DNA from: Opitutia bacterium ISCC 52
GTDB lineage: Bacteria; Verrucomicrobiota; Verrucomicrobiia; Opitutales; UBA2995
Assembly (NCBI GenBank): GCA_014529675.2
Contig: CP076040.1
Coordinates: 2,313,894-2,377,893, forward strand
DNA length: 64,000 nt
Direction: 5' to 3'
Shown here: piece by piece, positions 21,683 to 37,084 of the stretch
Position numbering within the stretch: position 1 is the first letter of the stretch
Layout: the number at the start of each line of letters is the position of its first letter
Notes under the pieces: generated by a model
The model's input: only the letters and a program-made list of their open reading frames with translations
What the model was told of the DNA's origin: nothing
The model's database searches: none
Translations under genes and position numbers: made by a program

Positions 21683-22924
21683 TTACTGCTGCATATCGTC
21701 TTTCAACTCCTCACATTCTGTTGGAATGTACGGATCACTGGTATAGACGGATTGATTCCTATGTGAGCTGGGTTCGGCCAGGTAAACAGGGTCTAGCACA
21801 GTATATTCGCGAACTAATTCGGAGCCGTCATCACTCATAGTGAAGCGTTCAGTAATTTCCATCTGGTCACTATGTCGAACGCAGCTATTTCGATTACCTC
21901 CAGGTGCTTGAAGAAATCCTGGCTTAAAGCCTTTGGTTTGAACGACCAAAGTATTGCCTTCCCATTTTCCTACGGAATAACCTGCGACACTGGGTTCAAT
22001 TTGATCAGGAAAGTCACCAACCAGGTGAATGGTACGAACCATGTCCATAAAACCGTAAGTTATTACAATCCCCGAGCCTGTTTGTTCGATCTTGTTGATC
22101 ATTTGATCGAAGTCATAATCAAAGATAATATTAGTTGGTTGACAATTGAACCTAGGATTCTGATCTCCCGAATAATCGTCGGACTCATCTATGCCAATTT
22201 GTGTCATCACAAAAGGTGCTGGTCTGGCAGGACCGCCAGCTCCTCGACCAGGGCCTCCTCGGCCTCCCGGACCTCCTTGGCCTCTTTGACCCTCAGCTCT
22301 TGGACCACCGCCTCTTTGCGGACGATTCATAGACGGAGGAGCGGCAACTCTTATCGGAGTGCCGTCAGCTGACAGTTCAATGCCTTTGGGAGGTCCATCC
22401 GCTCTTGGAAGTGCACCACGGGGTCCTGGGGCATCTCTTTGAGGCGTGGACCAGTTACCAGCTAAATTAGGCGTTCCATCTTCACGTGTGAGGTCACGTT
22501 CCCCGATGACGATGTTTCCAGACTTATCTAATACGTCATAGCGTGCGATAACAGAGCCATCTTCAAAGGTAATGGTTTCAGTATAAACCGTCTTAGGATC
22601 ACGACGATCTGGTGATCCAAAAATTTTAATTTTGGTTCCTGGCTTGAACATATCTGTGGTCCAACCTTTGCGCTTAAGTAAGCTGCCTGCCCGCAACTCG
22701 CAACGCCATTGCTCCTCCTTCCCTTGATCGTTCGTGACTTTGAAATAGAGGTAGGCATGCGGGTTCACAAATCGAACGCGATTCACCACACCTGTTACGG
22801 TCAATATCTGCTCAAGATCGAACTGCCCTGAAACACCGTGGTGGGCCACCGCAGTAGAGGGAAGAGATATTAGGCTGCACGAGAGTGCAAGTAAGGCGGC
22901 TATGGATGTTTGCTTTATAGTCAT
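21683..22924 (-). CDS. Secreted DUF6152 family protein (second tandem paralogue)
   Basis: 413 residues with a signal peptide ending SSTAVA and mature start HHGVSGQFD. Same architecture as its neighbours: N-terminal DUF6152 domain, long Gly/Arg/Pro-rich linker (about residues 200-240, repeated GGPGGRGGP units), then the C-terminal domain with FNCQPTNIIFDYDF and GFMDMVRTIHLVGDFP. The linker is the longest of the three. It ends QTKGFKPGFLQAPGGNRNS and a CEELKDDMQQ tail whose Cys is kept in all copies. The two gaps to its paralogues are 37 and 100 bases. It arose by tandem duplication; no function is known. Confidence 0.75.
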   Translation of the reverse strand: MTIKQTSIAALLALSCSLISLPSTAVAHHGVSGQFDLEQILTVTGVVNRVRFVNPHAYLYFKVTNDQGKEEQWRCELRAGSLLKRKGWTTDMFKPGTKIKIFGSPDRRDPKTVYTETITFEDGSVIARYDVLDKSGNIVIGERDLTREDGTPNLAGNWSTPQRDAPGPRGALPRADGPPKGIELSADGTPIRVAAPPSMNRPQRGGGPRAEGQRGQGGPGGRGGPGRGAGGPARPAPFVMTQIGIDESDDYSGDQNPRFNCQPTNIIFDYDFDQMINKIEQTGSGIVITYGFMDMVRTIHLVGDFPDQIEPSVAGYSVGKWEGNTLVVQTKGFKPGFLQAPGGNRNSCVRHSDQMEITERFTMSDDGSELVREYTVLDPVYLAEPSSHRNQSVYTSDPYIPTECEELKDDMQQ

Positions 22925-23024: not shown

Positions 23025-24236
23025 CTAGTTCTGCATGTCATCTTTCAGCTCTACGCACTCGTAAGTGATGAACGCCTCGGTCGTGTGCTGGGACGCATTT
23101 GAACCCTTGTAGGGTTCTGCCAGGTAAATGGGATCTACCACTGTATAGTCACGGGTCAACTCATTGCCATCTTCACTCATAGTGAAGCGCTCGGTGATGA
23201 CCATCTGATCGCTGTGGCGAACCGCTGTTCTGGCACGGCCACCAACAGCTCGAAGGAATCCTGGTTTAAATCCTTTGGTTGTAACAACCAGAGTATCACC
23301 TTCCCATTTACCAAGAGAATAGCCTGCCAAACTGGGTTCAATCTCATTGGGAAAGCCACCAACTAAATGAATCGTCCGCACCAGGTCCATAAAACCGTAG
23401 GAAAAGATGATTCCAGCTCCGGTTTGCTCTATTTTATTGATCATCTGATCCTTTGCATAATCAAGGATAATGTTGGTGGGCTGACAGTTGAATTGAGGAT
23501 TCTGCTCCTCCGTATAATCGTCCTGCTCATCGATGGCAATCTGGGTCAACACGTAGGGTGAAGGGCGAGGTCTTCCACCACCTCCACCACCCCGGGGCCG
23601 TCCACCGCCACCACCGCCTCCGGCTGCTTGAGGTCGACCAGTTGGAGGAGGTAAACCTACCCTTACCGGGGAGCCATCTGGAGCGAGGTTGAGATCCGCT
23701 GTCGGTCCATCTGCTCTTGGGCGTGGACCTTGAGGTGGAGGGCTATCTCTTACAATTTCTGACCAATTTCCTGCTAAATTCGGTGTACCGTCTTCTCGTT
23801 TGAGATCACGCTCTCCAACCATAATATTCCCTGACTTGTCCAGTGCATCATAACGAGCGAGAACCGAACCATCTTCAAAGGTTATGGTTTCAGTATAGAC
23901 CGTCTTTGGATCACGACGATCCGGTGAACCAAATAATTTGATGGTGGAACCAACTGGAAACATATCTGTTGTCCAACCTTTGCGCTTAAGCAAACTGCCC
24001 GAACGTAATTCGCAGCGCCACTGCTCCTCCTTGCCTTGGCTATTGCTCACTTTGAAATAGACATAGGAATGTGGGTTTACAAAACGCACGCGGTTGACTT
24101 TGCCTGTCACGGTTAAAACCTGCTCCAGGTCGAATTGTCCAGTGACTCCATGGTGTGCCACTGCGGTTGAGGGTAATACCAATAGACTGCAAAGAGAGGT
24201 AAGCGCAGCTGCGATAAGAGTATATATGATCCTCAT
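23025..24236 (-). CDS. Secreted DUF6152 family protein (first tandem paralogue)
   Basis: 403 residues; signal peptide ends LPSTAVA and the mature chain would begin HHGVTGQFD. N-terminal DUF6152 domain, poly-Gly/Arg linker (GGGGGGGRPRGGGGGGRPR, about residues 205-225) and C-terminal domain with FNCQPTNIILDYAKDQM and GFMDLVRTIHLVGGFP. It is the first gene of the minus-strand cluster, with 485 bases of non-coding sequence upstream, so the cluster promoter should lie there. The linker varies most among the copies while both domains are tightly conserved, suggesting the domains are functional and the linker is a spacer. Confidence 0.75.
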   Translation of the reverse strand: MRIIYTLIAAALTSLCSLLVLPSTAVAHHGVTGQFDLEQVLTVTGKVNRVRFVNPHSYVYFKVSNSQGKEEQWRCELRSGSLLKRKGWTTDMFPVGSTIKLFGSPDRRDPKTVYTETITFEDGSVLARYDALDKSGNIMVGERDLKREDGTPNLAGNWSEIVRDSPPPQGPRPRADGPTADLNLAPDGSPVRVGLPPPTGRPQAAGGGGGGGRPRGGGGGGRPRPSPYVLTQIAIDEQDDYTEEQNPQFNCQPTNIILDYAKDQMINKIEQTGAGIIFSYGFMDLVRTIHLVGGFPNEIEPSLAGYSLGKWEGDTLVVTTKGFKPGFLRAVGGRARTAVRHSDQMVITERFTMSEDGNELTRDYTVVDPIYLAEPYKGSNASQHTTEAFITYECVELKDDMQN

Positions 24237-24721: not shown

Positions 24722-26497
24722 ATGAAAAAACATCTGCTTGTTTGTGCACTCGTATGCGCGCTAACTTTCTTCTTTTCGGCATGCAATGGCGGACAAAGCG
24801 GGGACAACGCCTCGAGCACCAATACCTTGGCTGAAATCAAAGGCTCTCAACCGAATATCCTATTCATCGTTGCCGATGACCTTGGCTACACTGACCTGGG
24901 CGTATATGGTGGAGAAATTGAAACGCCACACTTGGACCAGCTTGCGCGAGCCGGCCTCATTCTTACCGATTTCCACAACGAAGCGGTCTGCGGGCCCACT
25001 CGCGCTTCCATTATGGCAGGAACCGACAATCGTAATGCGGGTGGCGCCATGCACCAAACGGCTAATCAAATCGGTGTGCCAGGATACGAATCTCATTTAA
25101 GTCGGGACGTAGTGCCTTTCTCAGACCTACTGCAACAGAGCGGCTACAATACCTATTTTCTTGGGAAATGGCATTTGGGCAGCGAACCAGCCCTACTGCC
25201 AACTGCGCGTGGGTTTAACCGATCGTATTCCTTGATGGAAGGCTTCGCCAGTCACTTTCATGATATGGGTCGTTTTCGCCCCGACCAACTGGGCACTTAC
25301 TTTGCAGATGGAAAGAAGGTCGATGAACTGCCGAAAGATTTTTTCTCAACAGACTTTTATACGGACCTATTGATTGAGTATCTGGATAAGGACGCTGATA
25401 GCGGGAAGCCCTGGTTTGCCTATATGGCTTACACCGCACCTCATTGGCCCCTTCAAGCACCCGACGAGTATATTGATAAATACAAGGGCATGTATGATAA
25501 AGGTTACGAGGTACTACGTGAACAACGTATTGTCCGTGGAAAAGAACTCGGAGTGATCCCCGAGGAAGCAGTCATGTATCCCCGTCTAAAATCGGTTCCT
25601 GCCTGGGACAATCTCACCTCAGAAGAAAAAGCAGTCGCTTCAAGAGAAATGGAAATTTATGCGGCGATGGTCGACGGCATCGACCAGAACGTAGGACGAC
25701 TTTTGGATCACCTGAAGGCGATCGACGAATATGAAGACACCCTGATCATTTTCATCTCTGACAATGGTGCAGAAGGTATTGATCGAGGAGGCCCAGCTCG
25801 TGGTTGGGATAACAGCTTAGAAAATTTGGGGCGTATTAACTCCTACATTTATTACGGTGAAAAATGGGCTCAAGCCGGCGTGGGTGTCGGGCGCTATTTC
25901 AAATCCCATAGCTCTGAAGGAGGATCACTCGGCCCTGCATTTTTCTACCATAAGGACATGACCAAGAAAGGTCAGTTGAACGATAAGTTTATGGGCGTAG
26001 TCGATTTCTATCCAACTTTTGTAGAACTAGCCGGGGGCAGCCACTTGAAAACGGGTAGCAACGGAAAACCTATCCATGAGGTGCAAGGACATTCCCTGTT
26101 GCCTGTCCTTTTTGGTGACGCTGATTCAGTCCGTCCGGATGACTTCACCTACGGTTGGGAAGTGTTTGGACATCGAGCATTACGCAAAGGGGATTATAAA
26201 TTGGTGTGGTTAACATCCAAGGCTACCGAAGGCGGACAGAAGGTACCTGAGTTGGCTGATCAATGGGGTCTCTTTGACCTTTCCGTCGATCCGGGTGAAA
26301 CCAATGACCTCTCTGAGGCGATGCCGGAAATCAGAGCAGACCTTCTGAAGTCCTGGGATACTTACGTGGCGGACAATGGAATTGTATTACCGATCGGCCT
26401 TCCTCCACGTCCTGGAGGCGGTGGTCCTCGGCCCGGCGGTGGTCCTGGAGCTCGTGGACCTCGGGGTGGTCCTCCACCAGGTGGCCCAGGAGACTAG
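24722..26497 (+). CDS. Lipoprotein sulfatase (AtsA-type arylsulfatase) with Gly/Pro-rich tail
   Basis: 591 residues. The N-terminus is a lipoprotein signal with lipobox FSAC at Cys21, so the enzyme is membrane-anchored, unlike the soluble sulfatases nearby. Motifs: FIVADDLGYTDLG, formylglycine motif C90-G-P-T-R followed by SIMAGTDNRNAGG (the AGTD/N signature of the AtsA-type branch), LGKWHLGSE, TAPHWPLQAP and FISDNGAEG, then a large insertion typical of this longer type. From about residue 562 there is a PPRPGGGGPRPGGG tail. It is divergent from the DUF6152 cluster and convergent with the TRAP operon's last gene. Confidence 0.92.
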   Translation: MKKHLLVCALVCALTFFFSACNGGQSGDNASSTNTLAEIKGSQPNILFIVADDLGYTDLGVYGGEIETPHLDQLARAGLILTDFHNEAVCGPTRASIMAGTDNRNAGGAMHQTANQIGVPGYESHLSRDVVPFSDLLQQSGYNTYFLGKWHLGSEPALLPTARGFNRSYSLMEGFASHFHDMGRFRPDQLGTYFADGKKVDELPKDFFSTDFYTDLLIEYLDKDADSGKPWFAYMAYTAPHWPLQAPDEYIDKYKGMYDKGYEVLREQRIVRGKELGVIPEEAVMYPRLKSVPAWDNLTSEEKAVASREMEIYAAMVDGIDQNVGRLLDHLKAIDEYEDTLIIFISDNGAEGIDRGGPARGWDNSLENLGRINSYIYYGEKWAQAGVGVGRYFKSHSSEGGSLGPAFFYHKDMTKKGQLNDKFMGVVDFYPTFVELAGGSHLKTGSNGKPIHEVQGHSLLPVLFGDADSVRPDDFTYGWEVFGHRALRKGDYKLVWLTSKATEGGQKVPELADQWGLFDLSVDPGETNDLSEAMPEIRADLLKSWDTYVADNGIVLPIGLPPRPGGGGPRPGGGPGARGPRGGPPPGGPGD

Positions 26498-26514: not shown

Positions 26515-27153
26515 TTACAAGATTTCCGCTACCTCATCGAAATCCATTCGCGGGCCGCGCGGATGTAAGCCTTCCGTTTCTCCGTAACCGAGACAGCAAA
26601 GGAAGTTCGACTTGTAACGTCCGTCAGCAAAGAACTCCTTATCGATGATGTCATTGTGGAAGCCGGAGATGCCATTGACGTCTAAACCGAGGGCACGGGC
26701 AGCTAGCATGAAGTAGGCCCCTTGAAGTGAGCTATTACGGAAGGCAGTTGATTCGGCTTTCTCAGGATTATCCCTATACAAGCCACTCACATCCTTTATT
26801 GGAAACAACTTTGGCAAATACTCAAAAAATTGAGTATCATAAGCAATGATAGCCACTACCGGAGATACTTTTACCTTGGGAATATTCCCTTCGTGTAAAG
26901 ACGGAATCGTACGACTGATGGCTTCTTCACTTTTCAGAAACAAATAACGCGCAGGATTGGAATTCTGCGAAGTAGGTCCCCACTTCATCACCTCATACAA
27001 TTCCCGAAGAACAGAATTCTCTACCTCGCGATCTTGCCACTTCTTGAAGGAACGAGCATTTCGAAATAATAAGTCCAGACCATTGTGATCCAAATTTTGG
27101 ATACGGTCTCTCAGGTTTTTAATAGCGTCGCCAGGCGTCGAGTTCTCAGACAT
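26515..27153 (-). CDS. Nitroreductase-family protein, RutE (malonic semialdehyde reductase)-like
   Basis: 212 residues. The RutE/HadB-type signature is clear: LFRNARSFKKWQDREV, LRELYEVMKWGPTSQNSNPARYLFL with FMN-contact residues, and a C-terminal LGYGETEGLHPRGPRMDFDEVAEIL. RutE reduces malonic semialdehyde to 3-hydroxypropionate in pyrimidine breakdown; no other rut gene is near. It is the last gene of the TRAP/dioxygenase run, 75 bases after the aldolase-type enzyme. Here it might reduce an aldehyde or enone made by ring cleavage. Family firm, substrate unknown. Confidence 0.78.
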   Translation of the reverse strand: MSENSTPGDAIKNLRDRIQNLDHNGLDLLFRNARSFKKWQDREVENSVLRELYEVMKWGPTSQNSNPARYLFLKSEEAISRTIPSLHEGNIPKVKVSPVVAIIAYDTQFFEYLPKLFPIKDVSGLYRDNPEKAESTAFRNSSLQGAYFMLAARALGLDVNGISGFHNDIIDKEFFADGRYKSNFLCCLGYGETEGLHPRGPRMDFDEVAEIL

Positions 27154-27229
27154 AGTTTTAAAAAATCAATGCTAGTGTTCTTAATGCCACCGAAATGAAA
27201 CTTGGTGGGTTGAACCAGTGAAGAACAAC

Positions 27230-28441
27230 CTAAGTAACATTGGCTAAGATTTCTTTGAACTCGTCGTTAGTCAGAATTCGCTTTTTAGCAATCCCCGCCT
27301 GTTTGACCTCGGCCAACAATTGCGTGATCTGCTCATCACTCACGCCGTCAATACCGAGTTCATTCAGCTTATAGATAATCGATGCCTTACCACTTTTCTT
27401 ACCCAATACGATATCGCCGGTTCTACCAGTTAGTGCCGGGTGCGTGCCGAACATAGCCAGCGGCTTCTCGACAACCAAGTTAACGCCGATACCAGATTCG
27501 CGTGTAAAGTTCCTGTCTCCCAGAATGGGTTTATTCAAGGCGTAGGGAATGCCGGTGATGTCTGCCAAAAGATTTCCAAGTTCAGGCAATTTCGCCAGAT
27601 CGTATTTTGTTTCGTACCCGTAGAGTAGTTCGAGGCAGAGAATTAGCTCCTCAAGGGCAGCATTACCGGTTCGTTCACCGAGTCCACCGACACAACTGTG
27701 GACACAAGTGGCGCCAACCGTGACGGCTGCCAGCTCAGTAGCAACGCCCGTTCCGAAATCATTGTGCGTGTGGATCTCAACGGGAAGCCCCGTAAGTCCA
27801 TTGACCTTTTGCACCAAGTACTTAATCGCTTCAGGAGTCGCACAGCCCATCGTGTCTACCACGCCAATCGAATCCGGCGAGGAATGCTTCATAATGCCGG
27901 TGAGCAGATTAGTCAGGTCATCTTCGCGAGCCCGTGTCGTATCGTAGGGAAAGAAGACAGCGTGGAGTCCTTTTTCTTTGGCGTAATTGATCACATCCGC
28001 ACTCTTTTTTAGGACGTCTTCCCAGGTCCAATTAAATTGGTATTTGAGCTTCGGATAACCAATGGGTACTTCGATGATCACACCGTCGGCTCCACATTCG
28101 ACTGCTCTGTCGATATCGGCATTCATAGCACGAGCGAAGGTATAAATTTTGGCGTCAAGACCCAGAGCGGAAATTTGCTTAATCGCTTCAAAATCCTGTG
28201 GAGAAACCGCTGGCATTCCAGCTTCGATCCGATCGATACCGACTTCGTCCAGCTTCTTTGCAATCGCAACTTTTTCTTCGACTGTAAAAACTAGCCCAGG
28301 TGTTTGCTCGCCATCTCGAAGGGTCGCATCGTGAATCTCCACCTTCTCTGGTAAATTGAGTTCACCTGTGACCTCTGGATGAAAGTTGTATGGGCTGACC
28401 CAATACTGGTCTTCTTTGTAATGTTTGCCGTGTTCGCTCAT
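27230..28441 (-). CDS. DRE-TIM metallolyase (homocitrate / isopropylmalate synthase-like)
   Basis: 403 residues from the ATG at 28441; an upstream in-frame start at 28510 would add 23 residues of poor quality. The HMGL-like TIM barrel is visible: DATLRDGEQTPG (38-49) with the metal/base Asp-Arg, HTHNDFG (224-230) with both metal histidines, then GLGERTGNA. The C-terminus (KSGKASIIYKLNELGI) resembles homocitrate-synthase-type tails without a LeuA regulatory domain. These enzymes condense acetyl-CoA with a 2-oxo acid or run as lyases. Embedded in a ring-cleavage operon rather than an amino-acid operon, it may act on a cleavage product. No leu or lys genes are nearby. Confidence 0.75.
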   Translation of the reverse strand: MSEHGKHYKEDQYWVSPYNFHPEVTGELNLPEKVEIHDATLRDGEQTPGLVFTVEEKVAIAKKLDEVGIDRIEAGMPAVSPQDFEAIKQISALGLDAKIYTFARAMNADIDRAVECGADGVIIEVPIGYPKLKYQFNWTWEDVLKKSADVINYAKEKGLHAVFFPYDTTRAREDDLTNLLTGIMKHSSPDSIGVVDTMGCATPEAIKYLVQKVNGLTGLPVEIHTHNDFGTGVATELAAVTVGATCVHSCVGGLGERTGNAALEELILCLELLYGYETKYDLAKLPELGNLLADITGIPYALNKPILGDRNFTRESGIGVNLVVEKPLAMFGTHPALTGRTGDIVLGKKSGKASIIYKLNELGIDGVSDEQITQLLAEVKQAGIAKKRILTNDEFKEILANVT

Positions 28442-28521
28442 GGTTGTATATCTATGTTTTAAATTTGGTATGTCGATAATTGTCTCTCTATTGAGGCGGT
28501 CGGTTAACAAACCGCACTGAA

Positions 28522-28914
28522 TTATATCAACTCTCGTTGCCCATTGGAATAGGTCACCTTGAGCGTGATCGATCCTTCGTTCATCATCCAGGGCCTGACT
28601 CGGAATGTGCGCGCCCCACTCTTATGCATGGGATCGTTCTCGGCTATGGACCGGGCCTCATCGATAGAGCTTGCGCGCAGGATAACCATCCCCTCGCCTT
28701 CCCATTCCTGCTCAGCATCATCCGCAAAAGGTCCGGCGGCGAATATCGAACCATTCGCCTCCAATTCCAATTGGTATTTGAGATGTTCCTGCAAGTGCTC
28801 CATGACCGCATCCATACCACCAGCTGGCTTGGTAAGAACTACATAGAGTTTTTTGGCTAAGAGACCCTTTGCTTTGACGTGCTCGTGATGTGCTTCCCAG
28901 GAAGATTGTGCCAC
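28522..28914 (-). CDS. YciI-family (dimeric alpha+beta barrel) protein
   Basis: 130 residues from a GTG start at 28914; the YCII domain proper begins around residue 20 (KKLYVVLTKP). The core is typical: GSIFAAGPFADD, GEGMVILRASSIDEARSIAENDPMHKSGARTFRVRPWMMNEG, with the Asp in NDPMH corresponding to the conserved YCII acid. The fold is shared with muconolactone isomerase, and the position directly after an intradiol dioxygenase (19 bases) makes an isomerase or hydrolase role on the cleavage product plausible. The 20-residue N-terminal extension is unusual for YciI. Confidence 0.7.
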   Translation of the reverse strand: MAQSSWEAHHEHVKAKGLLAKKLYVVLTKPAGGMDAVMEHLQEHLKYQLELEANGSIFAAGPFADDAEQEWEGEGMVILRASSIDEARSIAENDPMHKSGARTFRVRPWMMNEGSITLKVTYSNGQRELI

Positions 28915-28933
28915 TGTTTAGATGGGGTTGAGA

Positions 28934-29791
28934 TTAGAGTGCTTCGAGGTCGAAATCGAAATCGACTTTATAGAAAGGAGATGGAATGCCGTACTTTTCA
29001 GCTTCTTCTTCAGAGGTGACCAACTTATACGGTACCGCCAGAGATTGACGGACACCGAACACAGCATCCTCCTCAATGTATTCGTCCTCTTCACAAAAAA
29101 CTTCGGTTATCAGGTTGCGGTGCCCTTCCGCGCTCACTTTGTAGTGCAGATGGGACGGACGCCAGGCATGTCTCCCCTGCAAGTCGAGCATGCGACCCAC
29201 CGGTCCATCGGTCGGAACTTTATAACTGACAGGCTTGATAGTGGTAAATTCGTAATAGCCGTCTTTGTTGGTCAGCATTTTGCAACGCAGGTTATTCTCC
29301 GGCTGTTCGGGATCCTGATTTTCGTAGAGCCCGTTGGCAGCGGTTTGCCATACGTCAATAATTGCGCCTTCGATCGGATCACCACCCAGTGTCCTGACGG
29401 TGCCTGAAACCACGGTAGGCTCCCCTTCACTGTCGCCGATCAAGTTGGTGCCAATTTCAACCATCTTCGAGCCCTCAATGTAAAAGGGCCCTAACACGCT
29501 CGCTTCTGTACCTCCATCGGGATTGCTGTTGATAATATCCACCAAGGACGAAATTCCCAGGGTATCAGATGTCAGGATAAATTCATTGCGCGTGGGTCCG
29601 GTGATTTGTCCCGTATCGTAGAGATATTCAATCGCGGCTTCCCATTCATCTTGAGTTAATTGAACATCCTTAACAAAGGCGTGCAGGTGGCGAATCAAGC
29701 TCGACATCACCTCTTTCGCCCGAGGTTCTTTGGTCCCATCGATGGCTTTAAGGACCGCATCGGTTATGTTACCTTCTGTAAGATTTTTCAT
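28934..29791 (-). CDS. Intradiol ring-cleavage dioxygenase (catechol / hydroxyquinol 1,2-dioxygenase type)
   Basis: 285 residues with the N-terminal helical dimerisation domain (1-100) and catalytic beta-sandwich. Non-haem Fe(III) ligands can be placed: Tyr156 (ANGLYENQDPEQ), Tyr190 (KPVSYKVPTDGPVG), His214 and His216 (RPSHLHYKV), with the family-like spacing. RHAWRPSHLH and DAVFGVRQSL resemble hydroxyquinol 1,2-dioxygenases more than plain catechol enzymes. It would open a dihydroxylated or trihydroxylated aromatic ring to a muconate. It lies 31 bases downstream of the TRAP permease genes, so an aromatic acid may be the transported substrate. Confidence 0.85.
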   Translation of the reverse strand: MKNLTEGNITDAVLKAIDGTKEPRAKEVMSSLIRHLHAFVKDVQLTQDEWEAAIEYLYDTGQITGPTRNEFILTSDTLGISSLVDIINSNPDGGTEASVLGPFYIEGSKMVEIGTNLIGDSEGEPTVVSGTVRTLGGDPIEGAIIDVWQTAANGLYENQDPEQPENNLRCKMLTNKDGYYEFTTIKPVSYKVPTDGPVGRMLDLQGRHAWRPSHLHYKVSAEGHRNLITEVFCEEDEYIEEDAVFGVRQSLAVPYKLVTSEEEAEKYGIPSPFYKVDFDFDLEAL

Positions 29792-29822
29792 AGAGTGTTA
29801 TTCTGAATAATGGTCAGAGGTC

Positions 29823-31139
29823 TTAAAGAAAGACCAAGGAAAGAGAGGGAAAACTGATTATTAAAATGAGAACTGCCAACATGATCAGAGCAAATGGAAA
29901 GGCTCCGATAAATACATCTGATAATTTTATCTCCGGATCATTCAGCGAGCTATGAATCACAAAACAAGATACACCCAATGGTGGCGTTAGTAATCCGATC
30001 TCTGCACCGATGACTGTAACAATTCCAAACCACACCAAGTGGATATCCAAGGGTGTCAGAATGGGCAAAAAGAGAGGAACTATGATAAGAATAATGGACA
30101 CCGTATCCAAGATGGTCCCCATGAGCACCAGGAGGATCACGTAAATAATCATGATCCCTACAAACCCGAATTCCTGGTGCTGAATCCATTCACTAAAGGT
30201 GGTTGGCAATCCAGCTATCCCCAGCATTCGGCTATACATGGAAGCAGCAATCAAGAGCAGCAGAATAGAGGCGGTAATATGACCGGTCTCTATAAGAACT
30301 TTCCAAAACCCCTTGAATGTTAAACGCCTTTTGGCGACGGCTACAATCAGAGCTCCTACTGCCCCAGCGGCACCAGCCTCAGTAGCGGTAAACCAGCCGG
30401 TGTAAATGCCGCCCAACACAATACCTACCAATAGAACGATAGGAAAAACCATACGTAGAATCTGCAAGCCGTTCAGCGACTGGCCTTGTTCTTCGACTTT
30501 CTCACTCCCGCTTTTCATGACCATCTTCGGGAAGAATGTGGCCATAGAAAGAATCGCCACTCCAAAGGCGACGGAAAGCAGTATTCCCGGAATCACACCA
30601 GCGATGAACATATGCCCCACCGATTGTTCGGTGATTATGGCATAGAGAATGAGCATCACACTTGGAGGGATTAACATGCCAAGAACAGAGCTACCGGCTA
30701 CTACTCCCACTGTGAATCGCGGAGTATATCCGAATCGCTTCATTTCCGGAATCGACACTTTGGTAAACACCGATGCTGAGGCAATAGATGAGCCAGTAAT
30801 CGATGCAAAGATGGCATTGGCCGCAACGGTTGCTATTCCCAATCCGCCTCGGAGTCTGCGAAAAATATAATTGGAGACCTCATAGATATCTCGACCCACC
30901 CCCGCATGACTGATCAACAGCCCCATTAAAGCAAACAAAGGAACCACCGCAAAGGTAGGCTCTGCAATGCTGTCTGCAGCAGCCAACGAAAGTAAGGAAA
31001 TCGGCACGTCAATATCTCCACGCAGCATCCACACTCCGACAAAAGAGACCAAACCCAAGGCCACGGGAATGTACAATCCAGAGTAAATCAAGACGAGGAT
31101 CAAGACTACCGAAAGTAAACCTATTTGAATTTCAGTCAT
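29823..31139 (-). CDS. dctM: TRAP transporter large permease subunit (DctM-type)
   Basis: 438 residues with about 12 membrane helices. DctM signatures: GLYIPVALGL start, FAVVPLFALMGLL, FASITGSSIASASVFTK, GSSVLGMLIPPSVMLILYAI and a late LTPPLGVSCFVIHS. It forms the Na+-coupled channel unit with the DctQ protein (31144-31701, 4-base gap) and takes solute from the DctP lipoprotein. The operon places it before an intradiol dioxygenase. Confidence 0.9.
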   Translation of the reverse strand: MTEIQIGLLSVVLILVLIYSGLYIPVALGLVSFVGVWMLRGDIDVPISLLSLAAADSIAEPTFAVVPLFALMGLLISHAGVGRDIYEVSNYIFRRLRGGLGIATVAANAIFASITGSSIASASVFTKVSIPEMKRFGYTPRFTVGVVAGSSVLGMLIPPSVMLILYAIITEQSVGHMFIAGVIPGILLSVAFGVAILSMATFFPKMVMKSGSEKVEEQGQSLNGLQILRMVFPIVLLVGIVLGGIYTGWFTATEAGAAGAVGALIVAVAKRRLTFKGFWKVLIETGHITASILLLLIAASMYSRMLGIAGLPTTFSEWIQHQEFGFVGIMIIYVILLVLMGTILDTVSIILIIVPLFLPILTPLDIHLVWFGIVTVIGAEIGLLTPPLGVSCFVIHSSLNDPEIKLSDVFIGAFPFALIMLAVLILIISFPSLSLVFL

Positions 31140-31143
31140 TCCG

Positions 31144-31701
31144 CTAATCTATCTTGGTTACGGTTGCCGGTTCAGCCCTCGGCCTACTCAAATTTCTCTG
31201 AATGAAGACAACGAATTGCAGGAGCGTAACCGCACAGCCGATGACAATGATCAATTTAATCGGCCAAACCGGTGCAGTAAATACACCTTCGACACCTACA
31301 TAGAAATCTGCTCGATAGGCTTCGAAAAAGAGCGGCACACTCCCCCAGAGTATCAGCCCCATGAATACTGCACCTAGTAGGTCGAACAGAGCTGCATGAA
31401 ATTTACCAAAGGTGGGCCATTTCCTTCCAATGATATGAAAGAGTCCGTCCGACCGAGGTAAGCGTCCCTTGCGTGTCGCATCGCCCAACTGCAGAAACAC
31501 AATACCAACAATGGAGAGCTCGACGATTTCGTTCACCCCATCAATGGGTGAATGGAAAAGCTTCCGACCAAAAGCATCCATATTGATCAGAATGGTCAGC
31601 ACAAAAATCCAGACCGAACCGATACTATTTAGATTCGATAGGACAATTTCCAGGACCCGATCAAACTTACCGTTTGATCCTGTAGAACTTACGTCTTCCA
31701 T
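31144..31701 (-). CDS. dctQ: TRAP transporter small permease subunit (DctQ-type)
   Basis: 185 residues, four membrane helices. DctQ pattern: a first helix around IGSVWIFVLTILINMDAFGRKLF, VNEIVELSIVGIVFLQLG, the polar ATRKGRLPRSD segment and a last helix ending in FIQRNLSR. It lies 6 bases downstream of DctP and 4 bases upstream of DctM, so the three are one transcript. Confidence 0.88.
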   Translation of the reverse strand: MEDVSSTGSNGKFDRVLEIVLSNLNSIGSVWIFVLTILINMDAFGRKLFHSPIDGVNEIVELSIVGIVFLQLGDATRKGRLPRSDGLFHIIGRKWPTFGKFHAALFDLLGAVFMGLILWGSVPLFFEAYRADFYVGVEGVFTAPVWPIKLIIVIGCAVTLLQFVVFIQRNLSRPRAEPATVTKID

Positions 31702-31707
31702 AAATAA

Positions 31708-32781
31708 TTACTCTCGATCCCAATGTCGGGAAATATCCTGCCCGTTGGCCCGCATGGTATCCATGTAGAACTTCAAGATCTCATGGCCAGGCAGTCCTTT
31801 TTCTTCAAGACCGTCAGCCCACTCTTTCGCAATATTGGGCATATTGATCGCCCATTGCTTGCGCTCTTCAGCCGACATTGCGGCAATCGTCCCACCATTC
31901 TCCTGAAAAATCTTAACACTTTCAGAGCCTTTGGATACGGCCAACTTCGCCACATGGTCCCGATAATCGATAGCTGTCTCAGCCAGGATATTCTGAACTT
32001 CTGGAGGTAGCTTTTCCCAAGACCGCTTATTGACCGTGATGGCCTTGGAATTCACGGTCCCCATGTCCGTTTGAAGCATATAAGGAGCAACCTCATGCAT
32101 CTTAAAAGAAACGGCAGCTTCAGGCCAGATCATAGCCGCATCCACAACACCCGTGTTAATATTCTGAAAATAGGTCACGAGGCTCCCAGCTACCCCAGCC
32201 GAACCCAGGCCGTGCAGATAACGCAAGTTGGTACCAGCCCCGTTTATCTTTAGACCTTTAAAGTCGGATAAGCTTTGAATCGGTTCTTTGGAAAATACCT
32301 GATAGCTATCAAGCACTACCATGTTGGTTAAGTAAACCTGGTTGTAGGTATCCCAAGCCTCCTTCATTTCAGGGAATTTTCCAGCAATTTCATCTACTGT
32401 GCGTGCCACTAATTCCGGATCGGTTGTCACAAAAGGCGTGACATAAGCGATGGCTTGGATCGGCACTTTATCCTGATGAAAAACAGTAGTCACTACTCCG
32501 ATATCCCCTAAGCCTTTCTGGAGTCCAGGTAGCACATTCCTAGTTTTAACAATCTGCCCACCCCAAGCCTGGTTCCACTTGATCTGGTAGGTCCCAGCGG
32601 ATTCTAGGCGCTTTTCTACCTCCGGAATATAGTAATCGATAAACTCCTTCACCCACAGTGACTGGGTGGGATAGCCATCTACGACGGTCAATCGGATCGT
32701 TGATTGATCAGACTTGGAACATCCTAGCAGAGATACCAATGCAATTAATATGGAGACTTGGGTAATTATCTTTTTAGGCAC
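31708..32781 (-). CDS. dctP: TRAP transporter solute-binding lipoprotein (DctP-type)
   Basis: 357 residues with a lipobox LLGC (Cys21), so the protein is anchored to a membrane. The DctP fold is seen in KINGAGTNLRYLHGLGSAGVAGS, where the substrate-contact Arg is expected, and in a TVNKRSWEKLPPEVQNIL helix. It has a WGGQIVKTRNVLPGLQKGLGDIGVV segment typical of DctP proteins for organic acids. It leads the operon, making it likely that the operon's enzymes act on its ligand, which the sequence does not name. Confidence 0.88.
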   Translation of the reverse strand: MPKKIITQVSILIALVSLLGCSKSDQSTIRLTVVDGYPTQSLWVKEFIDYYIPEVEKRLESAGTYQIKWNQAWGGQIVKTRNVLPGLQKGLGDIGVVTTVFHQDKVPIQAIAYVTPFVTTDPELVARTVDEIAGKFPEMKEAWDTYNQVYLTNMVVLDSYQVFSKEPIQSLSDFKGLKINGAGTNLRYLHGLGSAGVAGSLVTYFQNINTGVVDAAMIWPEAAVSFKMHEVAPYMLQTDMGTVNSKAITVNKRSWEKLPPEVQNILAETAIDYRDHVAKLAVSKGSESVKIFQENGGTIAAMSAEERKQWAINMPNIAKEWADGLEEKGLPGHEILKFYMDTMRANGQDISRHWDRE

Positions 32782-33002: not shown

Positions 33003-34589
33003 TTAGCTTCCCGGCACGGTCTCGTGCAAGTGAATGATATTACCCTCTGCATCAACTGGCGGGGCTGAACGAGGAGGGCCTCCACGCCGACCACCAGCAG
33101 GTCCACCTTGACGACCGCCCGGTCTTCCACCTGTAGCTTCAACTCCGGGTCTTCCACCGGGGCCTCCCTGGCCAGCGGCCTGACGACCGCCACCACGTCC
33201 TCCGCGACCTCCACCTCGTGCGCGGAAGGGAGCTTCACTTATCAAAGCGGCCCATTCTGCATTTTCAGCCATCAGCTGCTTAATCACCTCAGGATGTGCG
33301 TCTGCAACATTGCTAGTTTCATTGGGGTCTTCATAAATTTTGAAGAGCTCTACCAATTCCAGAGGGCCATTTTGAGGTGCGTTCTTATTAATATTACTAT
33401 GAACCAATTTAAAATCGCCTGAATGAACTGAATAGCCAGTTCCGGTTCCTATGACGATATCCGTGTTGCGGGGACGAGTCTTCCCTGATTGCAATGTGTC
33501 CCACACGCTCTCCCCATCGAACGGTGATCTCAAATTGGTCTCCAGCCCAATGGCATCAACAAGAGTGGGAAACAAGTCGTAAACAACCATGGGCTGCTCA
33601 CTCCGAATACCAGCGGGAATTTTACCTGGCCAGCGAATGACTGCGGGCATGCGTGTACCTCCTTCGTAAAGCTGGCCTTTCTGCCCTCTGAAGCCACCAT
33701 TATCACCGACAGGCCCCGCGCCGTTGTCTGAAAAGAACATCACAATCGTATTATCCCGCATGCCTTCGTCATCGATTGTTTTGAGGATATTACCAATAGC
33801 CACATCCAGTACCTCAACCATGGCACAATAAGTACGGCGACTCTCATCCTCGACATGGGCATACTTATCTACATACGCCTGAGGCGCTTGAAAGGGAGTA
33901 TGAGGAGCTGTGAACGCCACGTATGAAAAAAACGGTTTCGAAGGATCTCGGTCGCGAATCAGCCGGCTGACTTCGTTGCCAAACAAATAAGTCATGTAGC
34001 CATTCTCGAAGACGGTTTTCCCATCCCGGGCCCAATCCTTTGAACCCCCACGGCCATGGTGTGTCCAGTAGTCCGGAAAGGCCTCAAGCGAACCATACGT
34101 ATGATCGAAGCCGCGATTGATTGGAAAGTCTCGCACGTGAGTATGGCCAAGATGCCACTTACCAGCAGTCATGGTCACATAGCCCGCATTTTTAAAAGCC
34201 TGGTTCATGAGCTGGTCGTCATGAGTCAGTGTATGGTCCCCCGAATCAGAATCGAAAGGCATAAAGACTTTGTGACGCATGGAAATATGCCCAGTTAAGA
34301 GCGAGGTTCGCGTAGGCGAGCAAATCGGGTAGGTATAAAATCGATTCAGTTCCATTCCATCTTTGACAAGCTGATCGATATTCGGCGTCGCCATTTCGCC
34401 ACCATGGTAGCCCACATCTCCCCATCCCTGATCATCAGAAACAAGAAGAATCACATTTGGCTTGGTGTCTGCGGCAGATAAAATGGAAACGGAGATCGAA
34501 GCGATGAGTCCAAGCATTAAATATAGGGTCAGCCACTTGAACGAGTAGTAGTGCGGCCAATGCCTCGGGGTAAAGAGAGCAGTTTGCAT
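33003..34589 (-). CDS. Secreted type I sulfatase with Gly/Arg-rich tail
   Basis: I take the ATG at 34589 (MQTALFTPRHW...), 528 residues; an upstream in-frame start at 34652 would put 21 extra residues before an already long n-region. The signal helix is at about 20-39. Motifs: LLVSDDQGWGDVG, formylglycine motif C90-S-P-T-R, AGKWHLGHT, TAPHTPFQAP and FFSDNGAGP. The last 80 residues or so contain FRARGGGRGGRGGGRQ and GGPGGRPG units before the ending HLHETVPGS, so the low-complexity stretch is subterminal. It is a stand-alone gene with 221 bases between it and the TRAP operon. Confidence 0.9.
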   Translation of the reverse strand: MQTALFTPRHWPHYYSFKWLTLYLMLGLIASISVSILSAADTKPNVILLVSDDQGWGDVGYHGGEMATPNIDQLVKDGMELNRFYTYPICSPTRTSLLTGHISMRHKVFMPFDSDSGDHTLTHDDQLMNQAFKNAGYVTMTAGKWHLGHTHVRDFPINRGFDHTYGSLEAFPDYWTHHGRGGSKDWARDGKTVFENGYMTYLFGNEVSRLIRDRDPSKPFFSYVAFTAPHTPFQAPQAYVDKYAHVEDESRRTYCAMVEVLDVAIGNILKTIDDEGMRDNTIVMFFSDNGAGPVGDNGGFRGQKGQLYEGGTRMPAVIRWPGKIPAGIRSEQPMVVYDLFPTLVDAIGLETNLRSPFDGESVWDTLQSGKTRPRNTDIVIGTGTGYSVHSGDFKLVHSNINKNAPQNGPLELVELFKIYEDPNETSNVADAHPEVIKQLMAENAEWAALISEAPFRARGGGRGGRGGGRQAAGQGGPGGRPGVEATGGRPGGRQGGPAGGRRGGPPRSAPPVDAEGNIIHLHETVPGS

Positions 34590-34846
34590 AGTAGGTTTGA
34601 GAATCAAGAAATCCAAGGAAGCATTGGTAGCAAGTGCAATCCGAGCAACCATTACCTCAATTAGTAGTTAGAGAAAATGCGGTAGAGTCTGATAAGAATT
34701 TGTGTAGGTCCTAGAAGTAACGCATTTTTGGACCCCTGAGGTTACAGGAATATATTTTTTTCAGATATCCGCTGCAGTTATCTTATAAATACGATTAGAA
34801 TGAGAAAACAAACAAAGCGCCTTTCCTCCCACCTCTAGTAGTCAAA

Positions 34847-37084
34847 TCAAGGACTAATCTTTTTAGCTCCTGCCACGTCTTCATTGCCTAGAAGATACGC
34901 CTGGCGCCGCTCCATAAACCCTCGCAATGTCCGCTCCTCATCTACCCCACCATTATCAAAAGCCGCGTAGAATGCCTCTGTGGTATCCAGCTTGCGGGTA
35001 TCCTCTTCGACCACTTCTTCGATCAAAGCCTGATAACGAAGGATCCTCGGCCCGCTCTTTTCCCAATCGAGCCAGTTCTCAGCAATATCGCGGACATAGC
35101 TTAAATACCGGGCGCGTAGTTCAGGAACCAACAATAGCTTCGAAGCAAGCGGCTTACTTTCGTCGTTCGCCAGCACCAGTGGATCCAAATCGACGCCGCC
35201 ACCGCCGGGTCGACCTCCTCCTGGAGCACCACCGGCACCTCTTCCTCCTGCAGGTCCTCCGCGGCCGCCCACTCCTCTGAATCCACCAGGATTTTGTCCA
35301 CCCGCAGCTCTCTGACGGAGCCTCGACAAGGTTTGGTCCAATCCTTCAGTTAATTGATCCACGGCGAGTTCGTTGTTTTGATCTTCATCCCACTCCGCGT
35401 ACCAATCCCCCAAAAGCTTCAGGAGATCAGAATGCATCACAAAACCATCTCCATCCGCATCGATTGATCTAAATAAGTAGCGGCCCGTAAACCCAATCGG
35501 TGAGAATCCCCCACGTCCTTGAAAAGGCTGACCACCTTCATTGCCCCATTGACTCAAGGTAGAAATGAATTGTTCAGCAGTCATACTCGCCGAGATATCC
35601 ATCTCAGATTCCGTAAACCAGACATCGGCGATACCCACAAACTCGTCACGATCAATTTGGCGATCGTTGTTTACATCAGCCTGAGCAATAAGGCCAGGCG
35701 CCAAAAATGTACCAGGCGAAAAGCCTCCCGGTCCACCGCGGCCTCTTCCTCCTTGGCCACGACCTCCGCGAGCGCCACCTGGGCCACCACCTCCACGTCC
35801 GACCGAAAAGGTCTCGTTGGCATCGTAAGGGAAAATATGGAATTTTCCATGTGGGTCCTGATAAAGGTTATAGTCACTTGCTCGAGTCCAGAAGCCGTCC
35901 CCGTTTACAAAAACATTGTCCAGAGCAAGAAACTTAAGAACACCATCCACATTGAGAATTTGAGCAAGTGCACTTTCGAGTAATTCGCTTGGCGCATTGT
36001 TTAAGGTATCAAAAAGAAGCATGAGCCCAACCCAACTTTTTGGATCCTCTCTGGTCTTAAGCTCGAAGGTCGAGCGGTAGGAATCAATATCGTCTCCCAA
36101 ATAGCTAAAGCCACCTTGACCTAGCGGACTTCCAGGTACCTTCCAACGGGCACCCATAGGAGTGCCAAAGAAGTCCCTGGTGAAGTTGGAATCAAACTGC
36201 TGCACATTGATATACAGTCCCCAGCTTTCACCATTAATCACCAAGCGGACAAAATTCGCTTTAAATGCCGGAATGTACTGCCGAGCAATTTCGTAGTATA
36301 GCACGTTTCGAAGGAAGGTCGGATCACTGTGAGAATTAAGTAGATTCAGTGTATTGTAGCCGCCGATTTCCTGTTTCGGATATACCATATCGAGTGTCAG
36401 ATTTAGAGGGCGCTTCCGACCACTCCCGATTGAGCTATAGGACGTGTTACCGCGGAACCGAACACCTACATGACGAAGTTTCTGGCCATCGACCTCCAGG
36501 CTTGCCGGCACATCAACATCGGTATCATGAAACTTCTCAAGCTCGTCCTCCCAATCATCACTTTCGAACTCGAGGAACAAACTACGTAAAGTAAATGGAT
36601 CATAGAGTGGCGCATCGGGATAGGAAGCCACATCTGAAGGTGTCATTTGTGGACCCGTTTCTGGCTCTCCTTGATCACCTCCACCGCCACCAAATCTTCC
36701 TCCTCCACGAAAGCCACCACGGCCACCGCCTGGACCTCCATTGGCTCGCTCGGTTTCCAAATGCACAAGCGCTGCTTCTCGTTCGGTCGCATTGAGCCAG
36801 CCGTTGTTATCCTCATCGAACTGCTCAAGAACTTTGGTGGTCTGACGCCTAGCTCCACCTGGACCTGCTTGTCCTCCCGGACCTCCGGCTCCTGGTCCTC
36901 CGAAAGCAGGTAAGTCCGCTATATCTGAAAGTGCATCATTCTCCAAAGAAGCAGCCTCTTCATCTGGTAAAGCGTTTGACCGGACGACCAAAATCAGGAC
37001 AACGGCTACCACTCCCAAGGCCCCAACACCCAAGATCAAGTCGAGCACCGAAGAACGAGGAAGATGGGAAAGTGGGCGTTTCAT
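34847..37084 (-). CDS. CotH-like kinase with EF-hands and Gly-rich segments, membrane-anchored
   Basis: 745 residues. One N-terminal membrane helix (about 14-34), then Gly-rich spacers, an EF-hand (DEDNNGWLNATE, 90-101) and a CotH kinase-like domain from about residue 155 (LRHVGVRFRGNTSY, KRPLNLTLDM, LLNSHSDPTFLRN, GLYINVQQFD, SDYNLYQDPHGKFHIFPYDANETF). The PYDANETF Asp corresponds to the catalytic DLD of CotH-type kinases. Inserted after the kinase core are further Gly-rich blocks and three more EF-hand-like loops (DVNNDRQIDRDEF, DADGDGFVMHSD, DEDQNNELAVDQ), so Ca2+ binding is likely. It is 26 bases downstream of the VTC gene in a conserved cassette; the phosphorylated target is unknown. Confidence 0.82.
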   Translation of the reverse strand: MKRPLSHLPRSSVLDLILGVGALGVVAVVLILVVRSNALPDEEAASLENDALSDIADLPAFGGPGAGGPGGQAGPGGARRQTTKVLEQFDEDNNGWLNATEREAALVHLETERANGGPGGGRGGFRGGGRFGGGGGDQGEPETGPQMTPSDVASYPDAPLYDPFTLRSLFLEFESDDWEDELEKFHDTDVDVPASLEVDGQKLRHVGVRFRGNTSYSSIGSGRKRPLNLTLDMVYPKQEIGGYNTLNLLNSHSDPTFLRNVLYYEIARQYIPAFKANFVRLVINGESWGLYINVQQFDSNFTRDFFGTPMGARWKVPGSPLGQGGFSYLGDDIDSYRSTFELKTREDPKSWVGLMLLFDTLNNAPSELLESALAQILNVDGVLKFLALDNVFVNGDGFWTRASDYNLYQDPHGKFHIFPYDANETFSVGRGGGGPGGARGGRGQGGRGRGGPGGFSPGTFLAPGLIAQADVNNDRQIDRDEFVGIADVWFTESEMDISASMTAEQFISTLSQWGNEGGQPFQGRGGFSPIGFTGRYLFRSIDADGDGFVMHSDLLKLLGDWYAEWDEDQNNELAVDQLTEGLDQTLSRLRQRAAGGQNPGGFRGVGGRGGPAGGRGAGGAPGGGRPGGGGVDLDPLVLANDESKPLASKLLLVPELRARYLSYVRDIAENWLDWEKSGPRILRYQALIEEVVEEDTRKLDTTEAFYAAFDNGGVDEERTLRGFMERRQAYLLGNEDVAGAKKISP

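Follow-up and report, generated by a model that had tools for sequence, protein, structure and literature searches.

Ring cleavage by hydroxyquinol 1,2-dioxygenases is known from pathways of the PnpC type and from TftH of 2,4,5-T degradation. A second described precedent is the end of the 2,4-dinitrotoluene pathway, in which 2,4,5-trihydroxytoluene is cleaved and an enzyme of the fumarylacetoacetate hydrolase (FAH) family yields pyruvate and methylmalonic semialdehyde. Phlorotannins are a large carbon pool in brown algae, and their aerobic breakdown is poorly known. Here we analyse a seven-gene operon in a 64,000-nucleotide stretch (the window) of the genome of Opitutia bacterium ISCC 52 (Opitutales, Verrucomicrobiota; contig CP076040.1, positions 2,313,894 to 2,377,893), which encodes a TRAP importer (DctPQM), an intradiol dioxygenase (IDO), a YciI-like protein, an enzyme of the DRE-TIM superfamily (DRE) and a RutE-like flavin reductase.

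An earlier note on this DNA had read the operon as a possible unrecognised branch for aromatic or polyphenolic acids from algae. This view is largely upheld, in that the gene set is conserved, the classical downstream enzymes are absent from it and DRE is plausibly a lyase; muconolactone-isomerase chemistry of YciI and an acid as ligand are conjectural, and an algal source is plausible. The module is real and conserved, and it is an aromatic-catabolic set that is probably unrecognised, no paper on this gene set having been found in a literature search that largely excluded subscription journals and preprints. We propose, with a confidence that stops a little short of even, that it serves the catabolism of a polyhydroxylated aromatic, in which an acylpyruvate is cleaved either by FAH-type hydrolysis or, as here, by DRE together with CoA. 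This chemistry is a testable proposal and not a result.

A gene module conserved in two phyla

The seven genes all lie on the minus strand between 26515 and 32781, with intergenic gaps of 6, 4, 31, 19, 80 and 76 bases. Their coordinates and strand agree with the one-strand operon described in the earlier note, and family scans match the names it gave:

31708..32781, minus strand: DctP, TRAP solute-binding protein with a lipoprotein-like start (PF03480)
31144..31701, minus strand: DctQ, small TRAP membrane subunit (PF04290)
29823..31139, minus strand: DctM, large TRAP membrane subunit (PF06808; TIGR00786 over cut-off)
28934..29791, minus strand: IDO of the hydroxyquinol 1,2-dioxygenase group (PF00775 and PF04444; PDB relatives)
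28522..28914, minus strand: YciI-like protein (PF03795)
28442..28521, minus strand: 80-base gap, the site of a decarboxylase gene, or of remnants of it and of a metallo-beta-lactamase (MBL)-fold gene, in relatives
27230..28441, minus strand: DRE, derived from isopropylmalate/homocitrate synthases (HMGL-like PF00682 and HCS_D2)
26515..27153, minus strand: RutE-like flavin reductase of the nitroreductase family (PF00881; NF003768)

DRE probably starts at ATG 28441 (403 amino acids) and not at TTG 28510 (426-residue open reading frame), since the aligned relatives start at the former position.

The same genes recur in a second phylum. A metagenome-assembled genome of Planktomarina (L012), whose family is presumably Rhodobacteraceae, carries an IDO (48%) followed by a DRE (68%). 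Among 295 genomes of this family, DRE occurs in 15 and the IDO clade in 40, and 14 of the 15 DRE genomes also have the IDO clade (Fisher 1e-12, uncorrected for kinship); the remaining one, G580, holds a broken IDO piece (L127:11922) near an intact DRE. G724 (L192) adds one more DRE, which a contig end truncates. Neighbourhoods in this family, mapped at 14 and then at 28 loci with a codon-scored gene caller and tblastn, share a conserved set composed of DctPQM, IDO, a GntR-type regulator, RutE, an OsmC-like protein, YciI and malonyl-CoA decarboxylase (MCD). Analysis of the dioxygenase neighbourhood, which the earlier note had suggested as a check, thus yields a conserved set in two phyla, and because this set recurs across Opitutales and another phylum, the genes of the window form a module and not a chance string. 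Two further observations concern these loci: some 600 bases separate a dimethylsulfoniopropionate demethylase gene (L012:4325-5449; 553 bits, cut-off 410) from the GntR regulator of the module, and L118, L119, L120 and L125 have, after or near DRE, a gene resembling a TAXI-type TRAP binding protein, a family name read from the sequence.

Within the order of the host the dioxygenase is rare (3/223 genomes), and DRE was found in 2/387 genomes of the phylum sample. Close copies of the operon are present in five other Opitutales genomes (L008 of G064, L009, L010, L018, and L088 of G211), those of L009 and L018 ending at contig ends, and L011 (G564) carries a variant. The operon proteins of the window are 78-91% identical to those of G211, which belongs to another family of the order, and this suggests horizontal transfer. 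No DRE match was obtained in 72,556 plasmid records at E 1e-60.

These relatives also reveal what the window has lost. MCD, which converts malonyl-CoA into acetyl-CoA, sits between YciI and DRE in the Opitutales relatives; L010 and L018 keep it whole, L009 and L088 have it only in decayed form, with remnants of MCD and of an MBL-fold gene at L009:2076-3080 and L088:13269-13577, and it is gone from L008 and the window. The window copy is therefore a reduced version from which MCD has been lost. A search for MCD (PF05292) gave no match anywhere in the host genome (G000; 4.8 Mb, a single contig), G064, G211 or G564.

Exchange of DRE with an FAH-superfamily hydrolase

In clusters that lack DRE, an FAH-superfamily protein of about 290 residues is encoded between YciI and RutE. 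In 41 genomes, the fetched stretches contained DRE only in 16, FAH only in 22, both in none and neither in three, the latter being a lone IDO in G579 and G586 and a degenerate cluster in G816 (L216); for this count we dropped matches below 45% identity for FAH and for malonyl-CoA synthetase (MatB), 55% for DRE, 50% for DctM, 44% for IDO and 40% for the others. Searched genome-wide, five FAH genomes gave weak DRE matches only (at most 214 bits). On the IDO tree, a quick IQ-TREE reconstruction with 37 labelled rows, the starred branches force at least seven changes between the DRE and FAH states. Such repeated replacement implies that the two enzymes do the same job, and recombination of cluster parts could produce it. 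Two loci were set aside: L011 as a case of FAH replacing DRE, since its DRE lies past the end of the fetched stretch, and L124 as a genome with both, its FAH being another paralogue that shares 31-38% identity with the module FAH.

Enzymes of this FAH type cleave 2,4-dioxo acids by hydrolysis, which gives pyruvate and a second acid; two close relatives act in this way on a sugar acid. The nearest curated family is, below its cut-off, 2,4-didehydro-3-deoxy-L-rhamnonate hydrolase, and L-2,4-diketo-3-deoxyrhamnonate hydrolase takes second place among the PDB relatives. The motif N-Y-x-x-H-x-x-E is kept in 23/23 sequences, and we take its H-x-x-E pair to be the catalytic one of acylpyruvases. The FAH clusters hold a further clue in MatB, the module copy of which scores 763 bits (cut-off 558). 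MatB lies in the fetched stretch of all 14 genomes with FAH and MCD and in none of the 11 with DRE and MCD (Fisher 5e-7, kinship ignored, for the 24 out of 25 genomes in which RutE is also present); the other 8 of the 22 FAH genomes have neither MCD nor MatB within the fetched stretch. Genome-wide, MatB is present in 8/8 FAH genomes tested, gave no match in 4/12 DRE genomes (G615, G623, G724, G750) and is over cut-off in 0/7 Opitutales genomes tested. This pattern would be expected of an FAH that liberates malonate and a DRE that delivers malonyl-CoA. Together, MCD, which the window copy has lost, and the MatB partnership of FAH elsewhere point to a malonyl unit as the product.

In the variant locus L011, YciI and RutE are separated by an MBL gene, a cyclase, an SSF transporter, a cupin, an SDR and an FAH (L011:10879-17878).

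Enzymes of the module and the missing classical steps

DRE scores below the NCBIfam cut-offs for isopropylmalate, homocitrate and citramalate synthases (356 against 517 bits, 353 against 484.75, the rest of the list also under). It keeps LRDGEQ, HTHND and GLGERTGNA, invariant or nearly so, which are presumably the metal and CoA-loop motifs. In 21/21 sequences, an alignment that leaves out the G564 DRE, Y166 replaces a Glu and G319 a His of the condensing enzymes; the aligned condensing relatives have the Glu in 5/5 and the His in 3/3 of those whose shown alignment passes that column. For the related methylthioalkylmalate synthase (MAMS), a His is proposed as a general base, and Glu227 and His388 are candidates for activating water (PMC8468904). 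In our reading of the alignment, these would be the positions lost in DRE, and an enzyme without them should not perform the usual condensation and thioester hydrolysis. A metal-bound pyruvate enolate and CoA would instead fit thiolysis or its reverse. The suggestion in the earlier note that the DRE-TIM enzyme could act as a lyase gains support from this loss and from the repeated exchange with FAH. Structurally, DRE matches homocitrate synthase (Z 33.8, rmsd 2.3, 282 residues aligned, barrel only), and 4-hydroxy-2-oxovalerate aldolase 1nvm is also related (48.6 bits; Z 29.5).

The five best PDB relatives of IDO are PnpC and hydroxyquinol-group enzymes (274-318 bits), as opposed to at most 164 bits for catechol enzymes; the second of them is a 6-chlorohydroxyquinol 1,2-dioxygenase, although this match is no closer than that of PnpC. 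Residues Y156, Y190, R211, H214 and H216 are invariant in 17/17 sequences; we take the two Tyr and two His to be the iron ligands, accompanied by the Arg. For YciI, to whose kind the earlier note had ascribed the muconolactone-isomerase fold, the sole functional PDB match is the chlorohydroxyquinol dehydrochlorinase TftG, and it is weak (23 bits, E 7e-4, below designed proteins). RutE passes the NCBIfam malonic semialdehyde reductase model NF003768 (252 bits, cut-off 152); near an autoxidisable polyphenol, it is also possible that RutE is a quinone reductase and OsmC a peroxide defence. The DctP model (pLDDT 87) matches TRAP receptors that include those for coumarate, cinnamate and other aromatic acids (Z 28-34), which the fold search did not clearly separate from sialate or ectoine receptors. 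R187, W43, W219 and F101 are kept in 28/28 DctP sequences and W69 in 27. Position 180 is N or A in 28/28, and the nearest solved relative, 4nap, has there an Arg, presumably the usual carboxylate-binding place of TRAP receptors; given this replacement, an acid is no more than a possible ligand.

The steps that, according to the earlier note, classical catechol and hydroxyquinol pathways would require are absent from the operon and were not recognised elsewhere in G000, including the cycloisomerase or maleylacetate reductase whose presence at another locus would have supplied an ordinary route. Muconolactone isomerase (PF02426) has no match in G000 and ten other genomes (0/11), nor does muconate cycloisomerase (TIGR02534) exceed its cut-off in any of the 11; TIGR02534 was chosen because PF02746 is too broad (12/12 genomes match, with 20 matches in G000). 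The two iron-type alcohol dehydrogenases of G000 have ErcA and lactaldehyde reductase as best families, both under their cut-offs, and were rejected as maleylacetate reductases on these best-family grounds only; neither has a maleylacetate-reductase match in NCBIfam, in which the presence of such a model was unchecked. Some 0.64 Mb away from the operon, at around 1.70 Mb, G000 has a separate cluster resembling pobA-pcaHG-pcaF-pcaB-pcaD-pcaIJ, in which the pcaB-like gene stays below its cut-offs, missing that of one model by 2.7 bits. This cluster would serve protocatechuate by the ordinary route, leaving the gap in the operon unfilled.

Proposed mechanism, alternatives and relation to known systems

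Based on the above data, we propose the following sequence for the module. The TRAP importer would take up a polyhydroxylated aromatic, and the hydroxyquinol-type IDO would cleave its ring between a pair of ortho hydroxyls. Tautomerisation of the opened product, for which YciI is a candidate, would yield an acylpyruvate, the simplest case being 2,4-dioxoadipate ("malonylpyruvate"), the substrate that follows if the acid product of FAH is malonate. This compound is expected from 1,2,3,5-tetrahydroxybenzene (6-hydroxy-hydroxyquinol), which would fit as a hydroxyquinol bearing a 6-hydroxyl, the IDO relatives including a 6-chlorohydroxyquinol dioxygenase. In the FAH version, hydrolysis of 2,4-dioxoadipate would give pyruvate and malonate, the latter being converted by MatB into malonyl-CoA and by MCD into acetyl-CoA. 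In the version of the window, DRE would cut the same bond with CoA, the pyruvate enolate leaving on the metal and the malonyl group going to CoA, to produce pyruvate and malonyl-CoA directly. An easily oxidised substrate may be shielded by RutE, acting as a quinone reductase, and in clusters elsewhere by OsmC; alternatively, RutE may handle malonic semialdehyde. An algal source is plausible: tetrahydroxybenzene has been annotated alongside hydroxyquinol and pyrogallol in brown algae of the fucoid group (PMC13412289), and also as a building unit of Ascophyllum phlorotannins (PMC7551814). In its most specific form, the proposal is that compounds of the tetrahydroxybenzene type, related to phlorotannins, are degraded aerobically by a route so far unreported, in which DRE, evolved from isopropylmalate-type synthases by losing condensing residues, cleaves a 2,4-dioxo acid with CoA into pyruvate and malonyl-CoA and has been repeatedly exchanged with FAH plus MatB in marine bacteria; we hold this to be possible, though on the doubtful side.

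Several observations weigh against this interpretation. G564 has both a module-type FAH, adjoining RutE and 49-59% identical to the other module FAHs, and a DRE, 93% identical to that of the window and about 7.5 kb beyond the FAH. Counted by kinship, the MatB pattern reduces to five independent pairs, which all agree (p 0.0625, not significant), and genome-wide MatB is found outside the stretch in 8/12 DRE genomes. The Opitutales copies without MCD (G000, G064, G211, G564) would need another use for malonyl-CoA. We know of no precedent for CoA thiolysis by an isopropylmalate-synthase-like fold, and the AlphaFold model of DRE is poor near the lost His (mean pLDDT 71; residues 300-351 below 50), so that it was not used for this residue. 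Pyruvate and malonate as products leave RutE unexplained, and the module holds no enzyme for making a tetrahydroxybenzene.

RutE would find a direct role if a pyrogallol-type ring were opened to 2-hydroxymuconate and hydrated to 4-hydroxy-2-oxoadipate, from which DRE, as an aldolase, would produce pyruvate and malonic semialdehyde for reduction to 3-hydroxypropionate. The semialdehyde reductase score of RutE, the presence of 1nvm-type aldolases among the DRE-TIM relatives and the lost condensing residues, which fit a lyase, all favour such a retro-aldol reaction. However, the module is without a hydratase, its IDO is nearest to hydroxyquinol enzymes, MCD and MatB require a malonyl group and not the semialdehyde, and the exchange of DRE with FAH would be unexplained, aldol cleavage being to our knowledge foreign to FAH hydrolases; we consider this route unlikely. 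The same 2,4-dioxo acid could also be reached from a 6-halo-hydroxyquinol, cleaved to 2-halomaleylacetate, from which a TftG-like YciI or a later step would drop the halide before FAH or DRE acts. The 6-chlorohydroxyquinol dioxygenase among the IDO relatives and TftG, the only functional PDB relative of YciI from its own family, recommend this variant, but YciI is a large family whose match to TftG is weak, IDO is no closer to the chlorinated type than to PnpC, and no halide-specific gene was seen, which makes it rather unlikely.

An ordinary hydroxyquinol pathway, in which IDO forms maleylacetate, an undetected reductase elsewhere gives 3-oxoadipate and YciI, DRE, RutE and MCD have side functions, would agree with the group and conserved ligands of IDO, and pcaF and pcaIJ of G000 could finish 3-oxoadipate. 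It appears quite improbable, as both iron-type dehydrogenases resemble lactaldehyde reductase or ErcA, and neither the DRE/FAH exchange nor MatB and MCD would be accounted for. Lastly, the similarity of DRE over its whole length to isopropylmalate and homocitrate synthases would suit a biosynthetic condensing enzyme placed beside the dioxygenase by chance; this is very improbable indeed in view of the replacement of two residues implicated in the chemistry of the relatives, the near-constant company of this IDO in DRE genomes and the swapping with FAH.

If the proposed CoA-dependent cleavage is true, a polyphenol ring can be converted to pyruvate and malonyl-CoA by marine members of two phyla without passing through 3-oxoadipate. 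The splitting step would then be one without earlier record and a new reaction for a well-studied enzyme superfamily. The two unrelated enzymes, exchanged so often, would then be a natural experiment for assigning neighbours such as YciI.

Beyond the operon, one flanking gene is itself conserved:

24722..26497, plus strand: sulfatase with a CGPTR motif, convergent with RutE, a conserved Opitutales neighbour

It is 77-86% identical beside RutE in L009, L010, L011, L018 and L088; such a neighbour would be compatible with a sulfated substrate but is no proof of one. A second sulfatase (33003-34652) lies on the other flank. Elsewhere in the window, 21683-22924 and 23025-24236 encode two similar tandem proteins that look secreted, with Gly/Arg-rich stretches, and 34847-37084 a large protein in which EF-hand-like repeats combine with Gly-rich runs; two genes beside the latter keep the same order in L008.

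Compared with known systems, the module resembles the PnpC- and TftH-type hydroxyquinol pathways in dioxygenase family and ligand residues, but has DRE or FAH with MCD/MatB and no recognised maleylacetate reductase. With the 2,4-dinitrotoluene pathway it would share acylpyruvate cleavage by FAH to pyruvate and a malonate-like acid, whereas that pathway uses extradiol ring cleavage and has neither a DRE-TIM alternative nor MatB/MCD. DRE shares its fold and the LRDGEQ, HTHND and GLGERTGNA motifs with isopropylmalate, homocitrate and citramalate synthases, from which it differs by Tyr and Gly in place of Glu and His and by scores below the curated cut-offs. Finally, TRAP transporter, MCD, MatB and a GntR-type regulator occur together in the malonate-use cluster of the MatPQM-AB type as they do in the FAH-type clusters; the module has in addition the dioxygenase, YciI, RutE and FAH or DRE, and the DRE-type stretches are without MatB.

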